A stretch of DNA of 22,973 nt. Source: a virus. The stretch lies in the IMG/VR virus record IMGVR_UViG_3300012013_000242, positions 1 through 22,973 of that record; one strand, given 5' to 3'. Each line of letters starts with the position of its first letter. The first letter of the stretch is position 1. Shown in pieces: positions 463 to 20,404 of the stretch. The notes below the pieces were generated by a model. It was not told the DNA's origin and made no database searches. It was given only the letters and a program-made list of their open reading frames with translations. Position numbers and translations under genes: made by a program.

Positions 463-692
463 TTAAGAAGCGCCTTGTTGTGCCATTTATTCGTAGAGCC
501 GCCGTTCTCGTCTTTAATCTCTGCGGAGAGTCGATGCGCGATCTCGCGTCGTTGAGCCGACATAGCCGAAGTAACAATATCGCGTAGCGTATCGGCGGAG
601 AGTGTTAGACCGTCGCGAGTGCGAAACGATCCGTCTGTATTAAGAAGCACACCTGCGTCGATCGCTATCGCGACTAGATCATGCGCTTTCAC
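432..692 (-). CDS. Small hypothetical phage protein (GTG start)
   Basis: An 86-residue leftward gene of unknown function. The start is GTG at 692, supported by a strong AGGAG about 8 bases upstream. No ATG lies nearby in frame, so the ribosome binding site decides the start. It overlaps the end of the MazG-like gene by 14 bases, which suggests translational coupling. The sequence is soluble and mixed helical, with a segment TLRDIVTSAMSAQRREIAHR at residues 35-54 that could be an amphipathic helix. No motif or membrane segment is visible. Confidence 0.6.
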   Translation of the reverse strand: MKAHDLVAIAIDAGVLLNTDGSFRTRDGLTLSADTLRDIVTSAMSAQRREIAHRLSAEIKDENGGSTNKWHNKALLKCISIIVQNK

Positions 693-1002
693 GATCCGAC
701 TCCTTGATAAATACCCCGCTTTCGTTTAGATATCCTTTCCTGTCCTTGATCTCGTTGTATGCGACCTCGAGGCATGAGCGAAGATCAAGCCCGGTCATCT
801 GCGCGACGTTTGTTAAGCACACCAAGACATCGCCTATACCGTCTCTGATCTCCGGAAGGCGCCGCTTAACAATAGCGTCAGATAGCTCGCCCATCTCAGA
901 AACCGCCTTCATAAACTGCACCTCTGGAGTCGAGTTCTGCAGGATTTGTCGATCTCGCGACCATTGAATAACAAGCTTCTCTAGCTCTTCGAACGTTTTC
1001 AT
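679..1002 (-). CDS. MazG-like nucleotide pyrophosphohydrolase
   Basis: A 107-residue all-alpha protein with the MazG/dUTPase-superfamily metal-binding pattern: EMGEL at residues 36-40 (ExxE), followed by EIRDGIGDVLVCL at 51-63 (ExxD, plus D58). Family members hydrolyse NTPs or dNTPs to the monophosphate and pyrophosphate. Phage versions are thought to adjust nucleotide pools or ppGpp, or to remove modified nucleotides. The length matches single-domain phage MazG-like proteins. The ATG is preceded by AGGAG with good spacing. It is the first gene after a promoter with the shared operator (1017-1052), so it is probably under the same control as the recombination and amidoligase operons. Substrate cannot be told from sequence. 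Confidence 0.85.
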   Translation of the reverse strand: MKTFEELEKLVIQWSRDRQILQNSTPEVQFMKAVSEMGELSDAIVKRRLPEIRDGIGDVLVCLTNVAQMTGLDLRSCLEVAYNEIKDRKGYLNESGVFIKESDRESA

Positions 1003-1016
1003 GCTATCTCCTAAAG

Positions 1017-1052
1017 GTTAGGATCTTAACATTATCACCTATAAGAAGGCAA
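1017..1052 (-). promoter_or_regulatory. Leftward promoter with overlapping operator (copy 1)
   Basis: Read leftward, a TTGCCT -35 (1047-1052) and a TAAGAT -10 (1023-1028) are separated by 18 bases. The -10 sits inside the near-palindrome GTTAAGATCCTAAC (1017-1030). The same 14-mer with the same -10 register occurs at 6040 and, with one change, at 20371. The predicted transcript starts about 14 bases before the MazG-like start codon. The promoter hexamers and repeat are seen directly; control by a repressor is inferred. Confidence 0.75.
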
Positions 1053-4577: not shown

Positions 4578-5401
4578 GACTTGATCTGAAAGTAGGTTAG
4601 TGGCTTTGCTCGATAAGAATCTACAGAGACTTGAGATAAGTATTTTTCTTGAATCTTTTTCCAGTTAATAGCTCCTTCTCGGGTAATCTTCTGAACTTCT
4701 ACACCATAACCGAAGTCTGTATCAGTGCGGCGGGCTTTGAGAAGTTTTTCTTTCGCTTCGTCTAGCTTAGCGCTCGCTTTGTCTAGTTCTTGTTTAGCCG
4801 CGATGTAAGCTTGAGCTAGCGCCTTCCAGTCGTCGTCGTCTCGAGAACGGATCGACGGCCAGAACTCGTCCCATGCGTCTTGAATAGTCTTCCACGCCTC
4901 ATGGTTTGGAAGAACTTCCAGTGTCGAATATTTCTGAGCTTGATGATTCCATAGCACATAGTGACAACGCTCGGCCTCGCATACCATTAGCTGATGCTGC
5001 ATCTGCATAAAATCGTAGATCGCAACACTATCGATAGATGCTAGGCTAAAGCGTTCGTTGTCCGTACTCCAAGGAACCTTGATTTCGATAATCGATTTAC
5101 CGTCTAACGAGATACCGTCAAGACTGGCGCCGTACTCGCCGTTTACGAAGACTGCGGGACGGAAGATCTCGCCGGTCATAGATTCGAATGCCGCTCGAGC
5201 TATTGGCTCCTGTTCCTTCCCTTTAGTCATGGCGGCGTTTTCGTACTGCCCCTTTCCGTCTACCTTCGCTGCGCGAATCGACGCTCGGTTTGCGTAAGGA
5301 GAAACACCGAGAACGGCTGGCGTCTCTGACGCCATTCGAAGACGGCGGCGCATCGCTAGCCACTCTGCCGTCCCTTGCTCTACCTGAACCTCGGTCTTCA
5401 T
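4574..5401 (-). CDS. YqaJ/lambda-exo-like recombination exonuclease
   Basis: A 275-residue member of the YqaJ/lambda exonuclease family, which digests double-stranded DNA ends from the 5' side to leave 3' single strands for annealing. Motifs in order are QGTAEWLAMRR (residues 9-19), RMASETPAVLG, a KGKEQEPIAR helix, ASLDGI with D95, and IEIKVP with E106 and K108 as the catalytic E-x-K. Q133 and Q136 in the FMQMQHQLMV helix complete the site. The C-terminal part after residue ~185 is a charged helical extension. It is coupled to the ERF gene by ATGA (5398-5401), a usual two-component recombinase arrangement. Confidence 0.92.
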   Translation of the reverse strand: MKTEVQVEQGTAEWLAMRRRLRMASETPAVLGVSPYANRASIRAAKVDGKGQYENAAMTKGKEQEPIARAAFESMTGEIFRPAVFVNGEYGASLDGISLDGKSIIEIKVPWSTDNERFSLASIDSVAIYDFMQMQHQLMVCEAERCHYVLWNHQAQKYSTLEVLPNHEAWKTIQDAWDEFWPSIRSRDDDDWKALAQAYIAAKQELDKASAKLDEAKEKLLKARRTDTDFGYGVEVQKITREGAINWKKIQEKYLSQVSVDSYRAKPLTYFQIKS

Positions 5402-6006
5402 ACTTCGCTCCGGTCGCGGCGCTGAAGCGAACTCATAACCGTTGCAAACTTAACGACAGGGATATCTCGGATTGACGCAACCTTGGCCCACTTAAGGATG
5501 TTGTCGATCTCTACGTTAACCTTGGCGGCTAGCTGTTCGATCGATGCGGCCTGTTCTTCAGAGATACGAGAATCGATTGGCTCTTGAGTGGTGTGATCTG
5601 CGTCGTTATCGCCCTCGGTCGGGATGCAGAACGACTGAAAGGCGGCGTACTTGTAGGCGGCGCTCATGGCTTTGTTGGTGCTTTTATCTCCGGAGTCCAT
5701 CGCCTCACCAAATACTGAGATCGTGTGCTTCGATCCGTCATGGCTAGAGATAAAATCGAACTCAACTTGTACCGTTGTATAGAACAGGATTGACCCTTTA
5801 ACGGTAGTGCGCTCGACAAGCTCGCGGGAGATAACGCGAGGCAGAATTACAAGACCGGCGCGGGCAAGAATCGGGGAGAGCTTGTTATATACATCGTCGA
5901 TGCTTCGAAACTTATAGCCCTGTTGACTGTTGTTGCGATCCTTGCTAATCCCTGTTTCCGCAATCTCTTGAGATACTGCTGCGATAAGCTGATAGACGTT
6001 CTTCAT
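5398..6006 (-). CDS. erf: ERF-family single-strand annealing protein
   Basis: A 202-residue protein with clear ERF-superfamily motifs: GYKFRSIDDVYNKLSPILA (residues 30-48), GLVILPR, and the strongly conserved GEAMDSGDKSTNKAMSAAYK region followed by IPTEGDNDAD. ERF proteins form rings on ssDNA and anneal complementary strands; phages use them for circularisation, repair and recombination. This is the first gene of the leftward operon, followed immediately by its exonuclease partner. It has AGGA 8 bases before the ATG and its own promoter with a consensus TTGACA at 6069-6074. The C-terminal third is a variable helical region. Confidence 0.92.
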   Translation of the reverse strand: MKNVYQLIAAVSQEIAETGISKDRNNSQQGYKFRSIDDVYNKLSPILARAGLVILPRVISRELVERTTVKGSILFYTTVQVEFDFISSHDGSKHTISVFGEAMDSGDKSTNKAMSAAYKYAAFQSFCIPTEGDNDADHTTQEPIDSRISEEQAASIEQLAAKVNVEIDNILKWAKVASIRDIPVVKFATVMSSLQRRDRSEV

Positions 6007-6039: not shown

Positions 6040-6074
6040 GTTAGGATCTTAACACCATAAAATTACCGTGTCAA
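6040..6074 (-). promoter_or_regulatory. Leftward promoter with overlapping operator (copy 2)
   Basis: Read leftward, a perfect TTGACA -35 (6069-6074), a 17-base spacer and a TAAGAT -10 (6046-6051). The -10 is embedded in GTTAAGATCCTAAC (6040-6053), identical to the copy at 1017. Predicted start near 6039 gives a ~33-base leader for the ERF gene. The -35 covers a possible GTG start of the divergent gene, which supports the later ATG (6101) for that gene. Confidence 0.85.
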
Positions 6075-6459: not shown

Positions 6460-6903
6460 ATGCTTCGCTACCTTCTTCTCCTCTTCCCTGTCGTTGCCTT
6501 CGGGCAAGACACGACAATTAACTATCGCGGACAACCGCCCGCTACGGCGATATCGCCGAGCATAAGTATGATGTCGCAGGACGTATGTGCCGTCCCGGTC
6601 TCAGGCGCCGTCTCCTCGACAGTAATCGGCTTCTCCGGCGGGACGGTTGTGCATGACGAGAACTGTCAGCGCATAAAGCTTGCAAAAGTCCTGAATGACG
6701 TTGGCCTTAAGGTTAGCGCCGTTGCGGTGCTGTGCCAAGACTTGCGCGTTTGGGAGGCGATGGAGATGAGCGGAAGCCCTTGTCCGATTGGTGGAGCGAT
6801 TGGAAATGTTGCGAGAAATGCTTGGATACAGCTACATCCGGAGCGGTTTCAGAAGCTTTATGGCAAAGTTCCTTCTCTCGCTGATACTTCTTCTGGGGAC
6901 TAG
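6460..6903 (+). CDS. Exported phage protein of unknown function
   Basis: A 147-residue protein with a clear signal peptide (MLRYLLLLFPVVAFG, likely cleaved before Q16). The mature part carries several Cys in a pattern typical of exported phage or conjugative-element proteins: SQDVCAVPVSG, then HDENCQRIKLAK, AVLCQDLRVWEAM and SGSPCPIGG. The Cys are probably oxidised in the periplasm. Function is unknown to me. GGGGAGGA 7 bases before the ATG gives a strong start. The next exported gene overlaps it by 44 bases, so the two are probably made together, just ahead of the lysis genes. Confidence 0.75.
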   Translation: MLRYLLLLFPVVAFGQDTTINYRGQPPATAISPSISMMSQDVCAVPVSGAVSSTVIGFSGGTVVHDENCQRIKLAKVLNDVGLKVSAVAVLCQDLRVWEAMEMSGSPCPIGGAIGNVARNAWIQLHPERFQKLYGKVPSLADTSSGD

Positions 6904-7678
6904 CGATGCAATTTCTCAGGTCTGCGCTTGCGCTCCTATCCCGAATTCAGGAACGACGTGCCACAAAAGAATTACCCGAGTCGAGCCATGTTCAAACGGA
7001 GCGGTCGGCGGGGAATTCCAACATCGAGACTCGACCTGTACTAACGGAGTCCTCTTCGATTCAGGCTGGTACATTGGACAGAACAGTTGTCAAATTAAGC
7101 CCGCCACAACCCCAGACCATCCAATTGTTATCCCCCCAACAATCGTTAAGCCAATCGAAGCAATCTGTACAACAAAAACCGAAACGCAAACGCAAGCCTG
7201 TCAAACCGGGTTCACAGGTATTAAAAAGCTCTCGCGCTCGAGCGTCTGTAAAAGCGAGCGTGGCGAAGCCGTCTGGGGAAACTGGATAACGGAAGATCTA
7301 TGTGTGCGAATACCGGCGCATCCTTTGAGCGTAAGTTCGCTTGCGAGCTTACCGAAAACACACACCCATGCTACAGAGTCGCATCACGTTCCTGTAACTG
7401 CGCCACCACCTGCGCCGACGACGACATCGACGCCGACGCAACCAAGCCCTCTAGCGAACCGCAGAACGCAATCGGTTCCAGAGGCAATTAAGCTGTCGCC
7501 GCAAACTATTCCGCGACAGGTTGCAATAACACAGGAGTTACCAGATGCCATCCGACGAGAACAAGAGTTACTCGGTCAACTTCTCATCGCAGATGATTCT
7601 TGGCTTGATCCTAACGGGCCTTCCCGTAATCGGTGGGACGGCTTACGGCGGAATGAAGTTCTATGGTCGAATGATTGA
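6860..7678 (+). CDS. Exported Cys-rich protein with WGxW module and Pro-rich tail
   Basis: A 272-residue protein. Residues 1-20 form a signal peptide (FLLSLILLLGTSDAISQ), followed by a Cys-rich domain. A second module around residues 103-150 has TQTQACQTGFTGI, VCKSERGEAVWGNWITEDLC. This C-GxxG-WGxW-C pattern recalls short thrombospondin-like modules in surface and adhesion proteins of phages and pili. A long Pro/Thr-rich stretch (about 180-220) follows. The start is chosen for the signal peptide, but its ribosome binding site is weak. The last 134 bases overlap the next gene in another frame. Function unknown; binding at the envelope is a guess. Confidence 0.6.
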   Translation: MAKFLLSLILLLGTSDAISQVCACAPIPNSGTTCHKRITRVEPCSNGAVGGEFQHRDSTCTNGVLFDSGWYIGQNSCQIKPATTPDHPIVIPPTIVKPIEAICTTKTETQTQACQTGFTGIKKLSRSSVCKSERGEAVWGNWITEDLCVRIPAHPLSVSSLASLPKTHTHATESHHVPVTAPPPAPTTTSTPTQPSPLANRRTQSVPEAIKLSPQTIPRQVAITQELPDAIRREQELLGQLLIADDSWLDPNGPSRNRWDGLRRNEVLWSND

Positions 7679-8114
7679 AACAATCGAGGCTGTCGACCGG
7701 TTTAAGCCGTATAACGATGCTGAGATTCGCGAGCAGATGAAGACATTGCAGATCGAGATGCAAGCAATTAAAGAGCGACAAATTCAAACAGCGGAGGCGG
7801 TTGTCCGTATTGCGGAACGATCTTCGGATGCGATCGCGTTATCTCGAGAGACAAAAGCGATGGCGCTAGGTAGCGCGACAGAGTCGGCGGCGATGGGGCG
7901 TGAGACTAAATCGGTAGCGGAAAGCCAAGTTCGCGAGATAAAGTCGGCCTTAGAAAGCCAACAACGGGAGCTTAAGATTGCTTTGACAAGTCAGCAGAAA
8001 GAAATCGAAGCGAAGCTCGTTACCCTAAAGCAAGACCTAGATGCAACAGCGGCGGCGCTTCGCTCTGAGATGAACATACTTAAACGAGCAACCACTAATC
8101 CGCTGGGGCGCTAA
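7545..8114 (+). CDS. Membrane-anchored coiled-coil protein, candidate inner-membrane spanin
   Basis: A 189-residue protein with one N-terminal membrane segment (residues ~16-36, MILGLILTGLPVIGG) and a long helical remainder. Residues 126-158 are three 11-residue repeats of the type ESQxxEIKSAL, a right-handed hendecad coiled coil. One membrane anchor plus a long coiled coil, next to a lipoprotein gene, is the architecture of an inner-membrane spanin, which helps fuse inner and outer membranes at lysis. K38 and R42 right after the anchor make the topology uncertain, so a structural or secretion role remains possible. AGGAG lies 7 bases before the ATG, so the start is firm despite the overlap with the upstream gene. 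Confidence 0.7.
   Translation: MPSDENKSYSVNFSSQMILGLILTGLPVIGGTAYGGMKFYGRMIETIEAVDRFKPYNDAEIREQMKTLQIEMQAIKERQIQTAEAVVRIAERSSDAIALSRETKAMALGSATESAAMGRETKSVAESQVREIKSALESQQRELKIALTSQQKEIEAKLVTLKQDLDATAAALRSEMNILKRATTNPLGR
7920..8018 (+). repeat. Three 33-bp in-frame repeats coding a hendecad coiled coil
   Basis: Three consecutive 33-base units encode ESQVREIKSAL, ESQQRELKIAL and TSQQKEIEAKL. Protein-level similarity is clear while the bases have drifted. The period is a multiple of three, so the repeat serves the protein. Unit-number differences between relatives would change coiled-coil length. Confidence 0.75.
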
Positions 8115-8335
8115 TGAGTACAGCAGAACAAAATTTTAAGTGGTCGTTAGGCGGGTTTGTAATATGCCTTGTTCTTGCTCTTCTTGTCGGATGCGAAGAA
8201 CGGTTTCGGTATACCTGTCAAGATCCGAAGAACTGGCAGACGCCAGAATGTAAGCGACCAGATTGCGCAATAAACGGTGTATGCCCTGACCAGCTAAACC
8301 GGCCTACCGACATGAAATCGGAGCGTGAACCATGA
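8114..8335 (+). CDS. Lipoprotein, candidate outer-membrane spanin
   Basis: A 73-residue protein with an N-terminal hydrophobic stretch ending in a lipobox-like LLVGC (Cys27), followed by a mature part with CQDPKNWQTPEC, then CAINGVCPDQL. The CQDPxNW..PEC pattern recurs in phage proteins encoded near lysis genes, as far as I recall. The 26-residue leader is long, but the hydrophobic core before Cys27 fits a lipoprotein signal. Its ATG shares an A with the TAA of the coiled-coil gene (TAATG), so the two are translationally coupled, as expected for a spanin pair. If not a spanin, it is an exported Cys-containing protein. Confidence 0.65.
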   Translation: MSTAEQNFKWSLGGFVICLVLALLVGCEERFRYTCQDPKNWQTPECKRPDCAINGVCPDQLNRPTDMKSEREP

Positions 8336-8640
8336 TAAATAAGTCGCCAGAGCAGATGGACGCGACCTTACGATTTATTATTGGAATCGTATTCGCGATG
8401 ACAGTGATGGGGATGGTGTTCTTTTCGCTCTATTCTTTGGTGTTCGTTACGCAGCCTATGAGCGGAATCGCTCCAGCCGACAAGCAATTTTTCTTCTTGC
8501 TATCAGATATGAGTAAGTACATATTAGGCTCGCTAGCCACATTGTTGGCGATCAAAGGCAAGGATGTTCTAAACGCAAAAACGCCGGAACCACAAGCGGA
8601 AAAGGAGAAAGAAGATGCTACCCCTCGGGCCACTTCTTGA
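8332..8640 (+). CDS. Small two-helix membrane protein, holin-like
   Basis: A 102-residue protein with two hydrophobic segments: residues ~14-38 (FIIGIVFAMTVMGMVFFSLYSLV) and ~58-74 (SKYILGSLATLLAIKG). They are joined by a short loop and followed by a charged Lys/Glu/Pro C-terminal tail, which is typical of small phage holins. Position supports this: it sits between the candidate spanin lipoprotein (ATGA overlap) and the 3TM-type holin, and before the endolysin. Two adjacent holin-like genes suggest a holin plus antiholin, or a pinholin. Confidence 0.65.
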   Translation: MINKSPEQMDATLRFIIGIVFAMTVMGMVFFSLYSLVFVTQPMSGIAPADKQFFFLLSDMSKYILGSLATLLAIKGKDVLNAKTPEPQAEKEKEDATPRATS

Positions 8641-9028
8641 AGTTGGGTCTAAGATTTTGGATCGGGTGCTTCCCGATCCGGAAGCGGCGGCTAAGGCAAA
8701 GCAAGAACTTGCCGCGCTCGAGCAGAATGGTGAACTTGCTAAGATGGCAAACGACACCAAAATTTTCGAGCTTAACGTTAAGAATACGGACTCTGCTCGG
8801 CAGATGCAGATTTCGACGCGCAGTCGAATTCCGGCAATCCTTTCTATCGTCACGGTCGCCGGGTTTTTTGGTTTGCTTGTCGGCTCGGCATTGGGCTATA
8901 TGGCGCTTACTGGTAGCGACGTAATGATGCTATTGCTCGGCGTTCTCGCAAGGGAAACCGCCTCGGTGTACAACTTCTGGCTCGGGTCGTCGAACTCTAG
9001 TCAACAAAAAGATTTGTTAAAAAAGTAA
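8615..9028 (+). CDS. Holin of the 3TM/GTA-release type
   Basis: A 137-residue protein matching the pattern of the 3TM holin family (first named from gene-transfer-agent release). It has an N-terminal segment ending in RVLPDPEAAAKAKQELAALE, a central NTDSARQMQISTRSRIPAIL, one long hydrophobic stretch (72-98), a second (about 102-120) and the C-terminal FWLGSSNSSQQKDLL. Holins permeabilise the inner membrane to release or activate endolysin. The start has AGGAG 8 bases upstream and overlaps the previous gene by 26 bases. The endolysin follows 9 bases downstream. Confidence 0.85.
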   Translation: MLPLGPLLEVGSKILDRVLPDPEAAAKAKQELAALEQNGELAKMANDTKIFELNVKNTDSARQMQISTRSRIPAILSIVTVAGFFGLLVGSALGYMALTGSDVMMLLLGVLARETASVYNFWLGSSNSSQQKDLLKK

Positions 9029-12066: not shown

Positions 12067-13800
12067 ATGGATCAGCTTCTACAGAGAGGGATACACCTAA
12101 ATCGATTTACACCCGGAGACTACAAAGCCAAGTGCCCGGAGTGCGCCGCAACGAGGAAGCCGAAAAACAGGGGCGATACGCCGCTATCAGTAAAGATTGA
12201 AGATAACGAAACGGCGGTATGGAAATGTCACAACTGCGGATGGACGGGCGCAGTAGGCGCGGCGACAAGGCCGAAGGCTAGGACGTACCGCCGACCGGAG
12301 ATCGTCGCTCCTGAGCCGATTTCGCAAGGCATTGAGGCATTCTTCGCGAGACGGTCGATCTCGAGAGGGACCGCCGAAAGGTTCGGGATTTACCGGGCTA
12401 CGCATTCATTCGGCGAAGCGCCGGAGAGTTGCGTCGCCTTCCCGTACTTTGTTGACGGCGAGCTAGTCAACGTCAAGTACAGGACTTCCGACAAACGGTT
12501 TAGGCAGGAGGCGGGTACGGAGCGCACTCTTTACGGGATTGATTTTCTTAAAGAGTCTTGGGGAACCGCGAAGCGCGTTGTGTTCGTCGAAGGAGAAATG
12601 GACGTAATCGCTTGCGCCGAGGCGGGGATTGTTGCGGTATCGCTTCCGGATGGGGCGCCAAAGGAGGCGAAGTTTGACGCAAACGATCGGCGCTTTGATG
12701 CGATAAGGGCGCACGAATGGATCTTTGAGGCGGAGTCTGTAGTCGTTGCGACGGACGGCGACGGGCCGGGGATGGCTCTCGCAGAAGAGTTAGTTCATCG
12801 TTTCGGGCGCGATAAATGCTCGAGGGTAAACTGGCCGGAGGGGGTTAAAGACGCAAACGATCTTCTCATGCAGTCCGGAGCTAAAGCGTTATCAGCACTT
12901 ATAAATTCCGCAGAGCCGTATCCAATCGAGGGGCTGTTTAGAGCAAACGATTATGCGGATCAGGTTCTCGCCATCTGGCAGGGCAGGATTCAGCGCCCGC
13001 TATCGACCGGGTTCTTGCTATTAGATCAGATCTACAAGATTCAGCCGGGGACGTTTCATCTCGTAACGGGGGTTCCGAATCACGGCAAGTCGAACTTTGT
13101 CGATCAGCTAATGGTAAATCTCGCGATTCAACACGGATGGCGGTTCGCGGTCTTTAGTCCCGAGCACTCGACGCCGCAACATCTCCGAAGGCTCGCAGAG
13201 AAGGTTGTGCAGAAGCCTTTCGATCCCGGCCCGACAGAGCGAATGACAGAAGAGGAGCTAAGGGCATCGATCGGGTGGCTTAACGAAATGTTCTTCTTCA
13301 TCGAGGCGCACGACAAGATCCCTACGATCGACTGGCTTCTATCAAAAGCGAAGTCGGCTGTAGGCAGACACGGCGTTCGGGGTATCGTTATCGATCCGTA
13401 TAACGAGATTGATGCAAGGCGAGACGGTAACAAGCGGGAGGACGAGCACATTCGCGATCTAATCTCGCAATGCAAGCAGTTCTGTCGCACGCATGACACC
13501 GTTATTTGGATGATTGCTCACCCGTCAAAGATGATGAGGCAACAAGACGGGTCGATCCCAGCGCCAACGCTCTACGACGTTTCAGGAGCGGCGCATTGGA
13601 ACAACATGGCGGACGTTGGAATCGTTGTTCATCGTGACTTCGACGCAGACTTAACGCGGGTAATTACGCGGAAAGTTCGAGAACAAGGCCTATACGGGAC
13701 GATCGGGGAGGCGCATTTTCGCTTCGATATCGTCCGTCGCATCTACGTCGAGCATCAGGTAGGTGCCCCGGTAGTAAGGCACTGGACGGAAGACGCATAA
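12067..13800 (+). CDS. Primase-helicase, T7 gp4-like
   Basis: A 577-residue fusion. The zinc-binding domain has CPEC (C23, C26) and CHNC (C54, C57). The TOPRIM domain has EGEMD (175-179) and ATDGDGPG (228-235). After a linker at about 275-300, the DnaB-like RecA helicase domain has the Walker A GVPNHGKS (335-342), FSPEHS, VIDPYNE as Walker B (441-447), and WMIAHPSK. The C-terminal VITRKVREQGLYG suits the nucleotide-sensing arm. The protein unwinds DNA 5'-3' and makes primers at the fork. Length and domain order match T7 gp4-type enzymes (~566 residues). It follows the initiator gene by one base. No DNA polymerase gene is in the window. Confidence 0.95.
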   Translation: MDQLLQRGIHLNRFTPGDYKAKCPECAATRKPKNRGDTPLSVKIEDNETAVWKCHNCGWTGAVGAATRPKARTYRRPEIVAPEPISQGIEAFFARRSISRGTAERFGIYRATHSFGEAPESCVAFPYFVDGELVNVKYRTSDKRFRQEAGTERTLYGIDFLKESWGTAKRVVFVEGEMDVIACAEAGIVAVSLPDGAPKEAKFDANDRRFDAIRAHEWIFEAESVVVATDGDGPGMALAEELVHRFGRDKCSRVNWPEGVKDANDLLMQSGAKALSALINSAEPYPIEGLFRANDYADQVLAIWQGRIQRPLSTGFLLLDQIYKIQPGTFHLVTGVPNHGKSNFVDQLMVNLAIQHGWRFAVFSPEHSTPQHLRRLAEKVVQKPFDPGPTERMTEEELRASIGWLNEMFFFIEAHDKIPTIDWLLSKAKSAVGRHGVRGIVIDPYNEIDARRDGNKREDEHIRDLISQCKQFCRTHDTVIWMIAHPSKMMRQQDGSIPAPTLYDVSGAAHWNNMADVGIVVHRDFDADLTRVITRKVREQGLYGTIGEAHFRFDIVRRIYVEHQVGAPVVRHWTEDA

Positions 13801-13814
13801 CTTTTTTTACGGCA

Positions 13815-13836
13815 ATAGGTTAGAATCCTAACCTAT
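13815..13836. promoter_or_regulatory. Operator palindrome covering the HTH-gene start codon (copy 4)
   Basis: A perfect inverted repeat with 9-base arms (ATAGGTTAG and CTAACCTAT) and a 4-base AATC centre. Its core GTTAGAATCCTAAC belongs to the same family as the three promoter operators. The final AT is the first two bases of the ATG at 13835. TAGAAT at 13821-13826 is a good -10, which would place the transcript start at or next to the ATG. No convincing -35 was found. Confidence 0.75.
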
Positions 13837-14041
13837 GAAGATACGCCCGGAAGAGTTTAGAGAGTGGAGGCGCCGCCTTGATATTTCGCAGTACGAGGCG
13901 GCGGAACTGCTTCATTTCCGGACTCGAACGAGTGTTAGTCACTTAGAGACTGGCCGAGTCAAGATAACGAGAAGGCTATGGGATCTATGCTTAAGGATCG
14001 AGAAGGAGCGGCGAATCTTTCACAGTTCTACGATGCCTTAG
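13835..14041 (+). CDS. Small XRE-type HTH regulator, probably self-controlled
   Basis: A 68-residue Cro/cI-like protein with a helix-turn-helix at residues ~17-38 (ISQYEAAELLHFRTRTSVSH) followed by LETGRVKITRRLWDLC. It would bind DNA as a dimer, in keeping with a palindromic operator. There is no Shine-Dalgarno: the operator palindrome runs into the ATG, and a -10 lies 9 bases upstream, so a leaderless message like that of lambda cI from PRM is plausible. Its 3' end overlaps the methyltransferase gene by 64 bases. It is the only full-length HTH regulator here apart from the initiator, which makes it the prime candidate to bind all four operator copies. Confidence 0.8.
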   Translation: MKIRPEEFREWRRRLDISQYEAAELLHFRTRTSVSHLETGRVKITRRLWDLCLRIEKERRIFHSSTMP

Positions 14042-14643
14042 CGCCGCAGTACGATGCTTTGTATGTAGACACAATCCATTATGTCGAAGACGAATTAGTA
14101 TGGCAGTTAAGCGAGTCTATCGGTCCGCTTGGTAAGGTTCTCAGCGTCGGCTGCGGGACGGGAAACGATATTTCGATCTTAAGGCTTGAGCCAGAAAAGT
14201 CTGTGTGCGTAGACTTTTCGAAAAACATGCTGCGCATCGCCCGGAAAAAGTACCCAGAGTACAGATTCGAACTGCACGATGTAACTCAGTCCCCGTTTCG
14301 GTACAACGCAGATACGGTTGTCGCGTTATACGGGGTTGTAAATTACATTGGAATGCGAGCCTTTGTAAGGCAGGTGTTTCAGTCCGGCGCGACTAAGTTT
14401 ATTGCAATTCTGTATGCGAACGGCTATACGCCGTACAACATTGACAATATCCCGCATCGATTCGGGGTGTCTGATTTAATCGAGCTACGACAGGCTTTCC
14501 CGTCGCTTCGGGTAAGCGGGCTGTCGTATTTTATGGATAGCAACGACATCCCGTTCGAGCCTCTGCTTACGGCGCAAAAGCTTATGACAATGCAGCCGTC
14601 TAGTCTTTCAGGGTGCAAGTATTGGGTTTGTTATAGCACATGA
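13978..14643 (+). CDS. Class I SAM-dependent methyltransferase
   Basis: A 221-residue Rossmann-fold methyltransferase. YDALAPQYDALY at the start is typical of small-molecule or glycan methyltransferases. VLSVGCGTGNDISIL (about residues 54-68) is SAM motif I. CVDFSKNMLRIARKKYP follows as motif II, then FELHDVTQSPF. Substrate is unknown. In this position, ahead of glycosyltransferase-like and DNA methyltransferase genes, it may modify a nucleobase or sugar. The start is ambiguous between 13978 and 13987. It overlaps the HTH gene by 64 bases. Confidence 0.8.
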   Translation: MGSMLKDREGAANLSQFYDALAPQYDALYVDTIHYVEDELVWQLSESIGPLGKVLSVGCGTGNDISILRLEPEKSVCVDFSKNMLRIARKKYPEYRFELHDVTQSPFRYNADTVVALYGVVNYIGMRAFVRQVFQSGATKFIAILYANGYTPYNIDNIPHRFGVSDLIELRQAFPSLRVSGLSYFMDSNDIPFEPLLTAQKLMTMQPSSLSGCKYWVCYST

Positions 14644-19367: not shown

Positions 19368-20339
19368 TTAGACTGAAGCGAAGCGGGCTTGACGGCTGTT
19401 AAAGTATTCGACCATAGACTGATCGAGGTTGGCGTAGATGTTGTCGGCGGTCGATCCGACTGTGTCTTTCCACCATTTGCAGAACGAATCGTTAAGCTGG
19501 CGGGTTCCGTTGACATAGAGCGAATCGAGTTGCTCCGTGCTAGCGAAGATCTGCCGACCGTCCGAGAGGCGGATTTCCCACTTCCGACCGCCTGCGTAAC
19601 GAACCGCTGCGCCGTTGCGCTCGAGTTGTTCGCGGATCTCACCGTAGGGGCGGTTGGTTCTGCGGGTATACGAGGTCGAGGCGGAGATCTCTGCGGGACC
19701 GACGGACGCCTCGATGAACTTCTCGAGGAAGAGAACCCAGTTAACGATCTTGTCGGGATCGGTCGTGCCGGAGTGCTGGCGGAACTCGATAGTGCCGTAG
19801 CGGGTAAGGCTGCAGAGGTTAAGCTTCTGATAACGGTCGTTGGCGTAGATCGCCAACTCGCGAGCTTCTTGAACGCGAGCGGCGAGCGCCCTGCTTACGA
19901 GCGCGTTGTTTACCGTCTTGCAGAACCGGTTATTGCGGCGGCTTGCCGGGAAGATCGAATCGAACCAGCCTTCGTACTTGATGAAGCGCGACACGACCGA
20001 CTTGATCTGATCGGCGGTCATGCCGTCCCAGCTAACATGAACGTGAAGCCCGCACCGACGGTCTACTTTGATTCCGGGGATGGCGTTAACAACGCTCGCG
20101 ACCTTGCGAAGCTCTTCGATACCTTGCTCACCACTAAGCGGCGGTGATACCAGCTCGCCACCAATACCGTTGTAGTCCGTTACCGACCCATCCGTAACCA
20201 GCTTCCAACGGTTCTGAAAGACCTGATGAGTGTATCCCGCGTTAAACGCTGAGACTCCCGCTGCGGTAAGAGCATCTACTACGGTGTTGATGCCTACGCC
20301 GGTGAACTCGATCTCTACCCCGAATTTGAAGCCGTTCAT
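19368..20339 (-). CDS. Amidoligase-family protein (Amidoligase_2)
   Basis: A 323-residue protein of the glutamine-synthetase-like amidoligase family, which joins a carboxylate to an amine using ATP. Motifs: FGVEIEFTG (residues 6-14), GGELVSPPL (60-68), RRCGLHVHV (94-102) and YGTIEFRQHSGT (181-192). The Glu, His and Arg residues in these correspond to metal- and nucleotide-binding positions of the GS fold. The C-terminal ~100 residues (TNRPYGEIREQLERNG, WEIRLSDGRQIFAS) are a separate region. First gene of the operon, with GGAG before the ATG and a promoter bearing the shared operator. Substrate unknown; peptide or protein modification has been proposed for relatives. Confidence 0.85.
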   Translation of the reverse strand: MNGFKFGVEIEFTGVGINTVVDALTAAGVSAFNAGYTHQVFQNRWKLVTDGSVTDYNGIGGELVSPPLSGEQGIEELRKVASVVNAIPGIKVDRRCGLHVHVSWDGMTADQIKSVVSRFIKYEGWFDSIFPASRRNNRFCKTVNNALVSRALAARVQEARELAIYANDRYQKLNLCSLTRYGTIEFRQHSGTTDPDKIVNWVLFLEKFIEASVGPAEISASTSYTRRTNRPYGEIREQLERNGAAVRYAGGRKWEIRLSDGRQIFASTEQLDSLYVNGTRQLNDSFCKWWKDTVGSTADNIYANLDQSMVEYFNSRQARFASV

Positions 20340-20370: not shown

Positions 20371-20404
20371 GTTAGAATCTTAACAGGGAAAAATAGCCTG
20401 TCAA
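20371..20404 (-). promoter_or_regulatory. Leftward promoter with overlapping operator (copy 3)
   Basis: Read leftward, a perfect TTGACA (20399-20404), a 16-base spacer and TAAGAT (20377-20382), the latter within GTTAAGATTCTAAC (20371-20384). It differs from copies 1 and 2 at one base in the centre. The transcript would start about 31 bases before the amidoligase gene. Confidence 0.85.

Follow-up and report, generated by a model that had tools for sequence, protein, structure and literature searches.

A small XRE-family gene in this phage has a palindrome over its start codon. This palindrome contains one of four copies of an operator core, and the four sites probably form a phage-wide regulatory set, bound by a dimer of the small XRE protein, which would shut leftward operons and limit its own synthesis. 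In our best reading XRE is a Cro-like repressor with a lineage-specific operator set, in which the start of its own gene is also bound. The window, by which we mean the whole stretch of DNA analysed, is an IMG/VR record in full, 22,973 bases long. The 14-bp core GTTARRATYYTAAC occurs in it four times without mismatch, at 1017, 6040, 13819 and 20371, where a first-order Markov estimate predicts 0.0015 copies per window; this expectation is somewhat flattering, as the pattern was defined after the copies were known. The looser pattern GTTA-N6-TAAC also gives four matches in the window, compared to a mean of 0.25 over 300 simulations, none of which exceeded 2. Three of the cores lie on leftward promoters, listed here with the genes behind them; ranks are those among 45,866 positions scored with an approximate sigma70 matrix.

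679 to 1002, minus strand: MazG-like gene, first behind the 1017 promoter, Shine-Dalgarno sequence AGGAGA
1017 to 1030, minus strand: core copy covering the TG-extended -10 TAAGAT (1028-1023); the leftward promoter has TTGCCT as its -35, a spacer of 18 and rank 6
5398 to 6006, minus strand: gene for the ERF single-strand annealing protein, first behind the 6040 promoter
6040 to 6053, minus strand: core copy covering the TG-extended -10 TAAGAT (6051-6046); the leftward promoter has TTGACA as its -35, a spacer of 17 and rank 1
19368 to 20339, minus strand: amidoligase gene, first behind the 20371 promoter
20371 to 20384, minus strand: core copy covering the TG-extended -10 TAAGAT (20382-20377); the leftward promoter has TTGACA as its -35, a spacer of 16 and rank 2

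In all three leftward copies TAAGAT begins at base 3 of the core, the base preceding the core supplies the TG extension, and the leaders between the promoters and the ERF, amidoligase and MazG genes are short. Taken alone, and so unaffected by the core, the -35 elements of the promoters at 6040, 20371 and 1017 have scores that 0.03%, 0.1% and 1.8% of positions, respectively, match or exceed. Several copies of one palindrome at the promoters of one phage characterize a multi-operator repressor system, and here there are four exact cores, three of them on promoters. A preliminary description of this DNA had considered only the XRE site and proposed a one-gene "compact switch"; the site belongs instead to a four-member set spread over the genome.

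The fourth copy lies between a primase-helicase gene and the XRE gene, both of which are on the rightward strand.

12067 to 13800, plus strand: primase-helicase, upstream of XRE, its stop 34 nt ahead of the XRE ATG
13815 to 13836, no strand assigned: palindrome, proposed autoregulatory operator, with the core GTTAGAATCCTAAC at 13819-13832
13821 to 13826, plus strand: TAGAAT, a -10-like hexamer within the operator core, without -35 and without TG extension; score 7.4, rank 79 of 45,866
13835 to 14041, plus strand: small XRE/HTH_31 gene of 68 aa, proposed regulator; profile match and AlphaFold model
13978 to 14643, plus strand: class I methyltransferase (Methyltransf_25 type), overlapping the 3' end of XRE; profile match

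The perfect 9-4-9 palindrome that the preliminary description saw ending within the ATG is indeed found at 13815-13836, where it reads ATAGGTTAG-AATC-CTAACCTAT and extends into the XRE start codon by its last two bases, AT. The 22,973-base window holds two perfect inverted repeats with 9-base arms and a loop of 0-8, this palindrome being one of them, so one such palindrome on its own is nothing unusual for 23 kb. What matters about it is its location at the start codon and the recurrence of its core. The ordinary frequency of such palindromes is the one point in favor of ascribing both palindrome and recurrence to chance, but the 14-bp core is present four times in exact form (0.0015 expected) and three times on the best promoters of the window, which already contradicts that explanation; we consider its probability negligible. 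At the XRE copy the mirror symmetry extends 4 bp beyond the core on both sides, an extension that the other three copies lack and that has a chance probability of about 1 in 256. The XRE gene adjoins this most symmetric of the four operators. The proposal that an operator lies over the start codon of the HTH gene is supported, and is strengthened by the three further cores on promoters. Judged from sequence and placement, the identity of these sites as operators is well supported.

The product of the small gene matches PF13560 (HTH_31) with an E-value of 1.9e-6 and 28.5 bits, above the curated cut-off of 27, which confirms the XRE-like gene of the preliminary description as a real ORF. Its AlphaFold model (mean pLDDT 84.5) has four helices, including a helix-turn-helix, and no product of the record other than XRE matches HTH_31. 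An MqsA-type identity was dropped, as TIGR03830 scored 23 bits, below its cut-off of 61.8. Elsewhere in the window, the minus strand at 1076-1396 encodes an NrdR-like zinc ribbon protein, with the rest of NrdR unmatched. Further DNA-binding candidates are an HTH_24-like product (3-308) and ParB-like products (16835 and 17550), and the four sites might in principle be bound by one of these or by a host protein, with XRE merely another target. We regard this as unlikely, since the best copy abuts XRE and the XRE genes of relatives sit behind the operators of the family. Position and relatives both point to the XRE protein as the likely operator binder.

In the proposed mechanism, the small XRE protein would bind the four operators, probably as a dimer. 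The copies at 1017, 6040 and 20371 overlie the TG-extended -10 elements of the strong leftward sigma70-type promoters, and binding should therefore block RNA polymerase. Accumulation of XRE would then switch off the operons of MazG, ERF recombination and the amidoligase; the operator at 13815-13836, covering the XRE start, would limit XRE synthesis. Such self-repression is plausible from the location of the site, and the behavior would be like that of Cro or a phage early-gene autorepressor. We infer both repression upon binding and the mode of XRE's own transcription; the effect of XRE at its operators may also be activation rather than repression. None of 16 records, which may be fragments, matches the tyrosine integrase profile PF00589, the tyrosine type alone having been sought. 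Lysogeny is therefore not implied, and Cro-like early-gene shut-off fits better than a lysogeny switch.

How XRE is transcribed can be read in two main ways. In the first, put forward in the preliminary description, the operator site doubles as a promoter for a leaderless XRE message that has A13835 as its first base and is repressed by XRE itself. TAGAAT matches TATAAT at five of six positions, and the 8 nt between the hexamer and the ATG at 13835 make a transcript start at the A of the ATG plausible. Shine-Dalgarno pairing at XRE is weak (-3.1 kcal/mol, 27th of 34 starts), so the claim of a missing Shine-Dalgarno holds in that no usable one is found, but it does not set the gene apart, as 7 of the 33 other starts pair more weakly. 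Leaderless messages also have precedents in acuR (PMC3017554) and in cI and cro of PY54 (PMC4488713). Neither a -35 nor an extended -10 accompanies the hexamer, however, unlike at the three sister sites: the best -35 at 15-19 nt from TAGAAT is ATAACT, at 1.1 bits, a score equaled by 25% of all positions, and the earlier remark that no strong -35 is visible was correct. In addition, TAGAAT has the same offset within the core as the -10 hexamers of the three sister copies. The hexamer is therefore given by the operator sequence and, as separate evidence, says little for a leaderless promoter. The spacing that first suggested a leaderless -10 stands, but the hexamer itself is best regarded, on these sequence features, as a component of the operator. 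The XRE start may still have a leaderless promoter of low strength, and the autorepressed leaderless message is a tentative reading.

In the second reading, for which we see somewhat less than an even chance, XRE is transcribed solely by read-through from the primase operon, and the operator acts as a polymerase roadblock or as a start-codon RNA hairpin. The primase stop and the XRE start are 34 nt apart on the same strand, XRE is without an evident promoter of its own, and an RNA of the palindrome sequence has a folding energy of -9.7 kcal/mol (z -4.4). Against this, the accessibility of the XRE start codon within a read-through transcript is ordinary, the 15th lowest of 34 starts, and a weak Shine-Dalgarno combined with a hairpin would be expected to give poor translation. 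On the plus strand the other three copies fold at only -1.3 to -1.4 kcal/mol, and the XRE copy alone among the four could be contained in the mRNA of its own gene. A dual role, in which the palindrome is both a DNA operator and a 9-bp RNA hairpin that locks the AUG on the read-through message, perhaps bound by XRE, leaving a leaderless transcript with its 5' end at the AUG as the sole source of the protein, appears quite improbable. An RNA lock as the main reading was dropped, given the average accessibility of the AUG.

Aca2 is an anti-CRISPR-associated repressor that binds both DNA and an mRNA hairpin; our literature search on Aca2 as an RNA binder returned no paper on that point. Aca2 and Aca10 have a similar small HTH fold, a weak likeness (Foldseek E 0.1-0.75) that concerns the fold only. 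No acr gene is recognized beside XRE, whose neighbors are the primase-helicase and the methyltransferase.

Relatives of the phage were collected through the primase: 124 of 126 stretches from viral_contigs encoded a relative of it, with a top identity of 62%, and the best 80 of these were kept. None of the GTTA-N6-TAAC matches in the 80 loci fits the window core. Where the region behind the primase is readable in these loci, no XRE homologue is evident in that slot, the phmmer hits lying elsewhere, and there is therefore no counterpart for comparing the site at the XRE start. Strong G/C hairpins (GGGGGGTTTGGTCGCCCCCC and variants) stand right after the primase, where the window has XRE, in L006, L008, L010-L016, L019 and L025.

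The gene order around the ParB-like, PAPS-reductase, amidoligase and terminase genes is common to many relatives, and parallel operator sets occur there. By eye, a palindrome like TGTTKAC-N4-GTMAACA lies over the -35 in 12 of the 15 distinct amidoligase-upstream regions listed, those without it being L028, L033 and L034. Exact copies number four in L010 (control mean 0.2) and five in the 44.9-kb record G015; their arms are constant, their spacers vary, and all are on leftward promoters. The window has no copy of this palindrome at up to two mismatches. A 7-4-7 form fits both operators, as AGGTTAG-N4-CTAACCT in the window and TGTTTAC-N4-GTCAACA in the relatives. XRE homologues are found in 10 of 30 records, with 22-34% identity over the alignment. 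In seven of these (G013, G015, G017, G018, G020, G026 and G032) an operator of the common type (up to two mismatches) lies on the same strand about 0.3-1.1 kb upstream of XRE, the intervening genes having been examined in part; in the other three (G023, G028 and G030) no such operator is found upstream. The XRE proteins of L010 and G015 share the recognition-helix stretch NTRSMICHLESG as well as the operator arms, whereas the window XRE differs in both and, unlike those of the relatives, which lie in leftward operons, is placed on the rightward strand. This difference of position and the three records without the upstream operator count against our best reading. From these comparisons, the phage group appears to control its leftward operons through a small XRE regulator with one operator per promoter. 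The sequence and place of the operator appear to be lineage-specific, over the -35 in most relatives and over the -10 in the window. Homologous small XRE proteins are thus paired with different operators, which makes the phage group a natural series on the joint change of a repressor and its scattered operators. In the window itself, what began as a single palindrome now represents a small regulon that is open to experiment, in a phage not in culture.

Other palindromes were observed among the relatives. Leftward promoters in L026, L030, L041 and L228 carry CCCCATATTGGG(G) around the -10 besides the -35 palindrome, a possible second operator. Palindromes like TGTTCTTGACAGAACA lie on TTGACA in L048 (8753 and 9334), L054 (5986) and L057 (1545), and exact TGTTC-N6-GAACA copies number two, one and one in these records, with two-mismatch counts not clearly above mono-shuffles; this gives a hint of a third operator type in the phage group. 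In L060 a palindrome like TTTGTANNTACAAA occurs at four places (1656, 7703, 8436 and 14235). A de novo search for repeated palindromes in the relatives recovered the L010 set, and in AT-rich loci it did no better than shuffles. One setting of this search missed the window's own set because the pairing of the window core lies outside its model.

Leaderless autorepressors and scattered phage operators are both already known (PMC3017554, PMC4488713, PMC4824078, PMC4557955), and the systems closest to that of the window compare as follows. Lambda Cro (66 aa; PMC7286687) and Cro-like autorepressors share with XRE a small HTH protein and several palindromic operators over promoters, that of the own gene included. 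In contrast to lambda Cro, the window has one operator per promoter at four places over 19 kb rather than in a cI/cro intergenic region, no CI-type partner is identified, and an integrase match is absent from the 16 records. Mycobacteriophage BPs gp33 likewise has repeated operators in several intergenic regions, one of which overlaps the start site of the BPs repressor promoter, but these consist of two 12-bp palindromic half sites, and the phage is temperate and the protein a different one (PMC4557955). AcuR of Rhodobacter sphaeroides is an autorepressor with an 8-bp inverted-repeat operator, whose message begins exactly at the AUG and has no Shine-Dalgarno; it differs in belonging to the TetR family, in having both -35 and -10, in its mapped start and in its response to acrylate (PMC3017554). 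The PY54 cI and cro genes encode phage HTH repressors translated from leaderless messages, but with mapped starts, strong promoters and an operator about 40 bp from the cro promoter (PMC4488713). Restriction-modification C proteins such as C.Csp231I are small XRE proteins with a palindromic C-box in their own promoter and leaderless transcripts. They differ in having paired C-boxes and a neighboring restriction enzyme (PMC4824078), whereas the window has a single palindrome and, in place of an adjacent restriction or DNA methyltransferase gene, a Methyltransf_25-type neighbor. A literature search for the phage group itself matched no paper.

XRE homologues were obtained through the primase relatives alone: tblastn against 50,697 phage records found none, nor did a peptide pattern in viral_contigs, where the exact palindrome followed by G was also absent. 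The pattern TTGACA-N14-19-TTARRATYYTAAC occurs in 29 stretches of viral_contigs, of which one contains a homologue of a window protein (TerL, 41%). These loci carry at most one exact core per record (14 records counted), and are therefore not the same operator set as in the window. The window core was absent from 80 ERF-relative loci. The ERF promoter of L147 bears a different palindrome with one exact copy in its record. L147 and window 6460-9028 show 63-90% protein identity, but 65% for ERF and 49% for the exonuclease, which points to mosaic exchange. Two contigs that encode relatives of the primase, one of Magnetospirillum fulvum (44%) and one of Acidisphaera (38%), hint weakly at a host among the Alphaproteobacteria; no XRE homologue was found at these two loci.

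In another phage group (L086, L092, L096 and L106, near-identical and therefore not independent), the start of the MTKIIGICGFIGSGKDTAAD gene has the arrangement TTGACA-17-TAAAAT-6-ATG inside the long palindrome TTAGTCATGTTAAAATTCTAACATGACTAA, with the ATG included. By its sequence this is a better candidate for a leaderless operator-promoter than the window site. In L084, L094, L095, L100, L104 and L105, TTGACA promoters carry the palindrome CGTGTTAGAATCTTAACACG over the -10, with one exact core in each of the four records counted, G001-G004.
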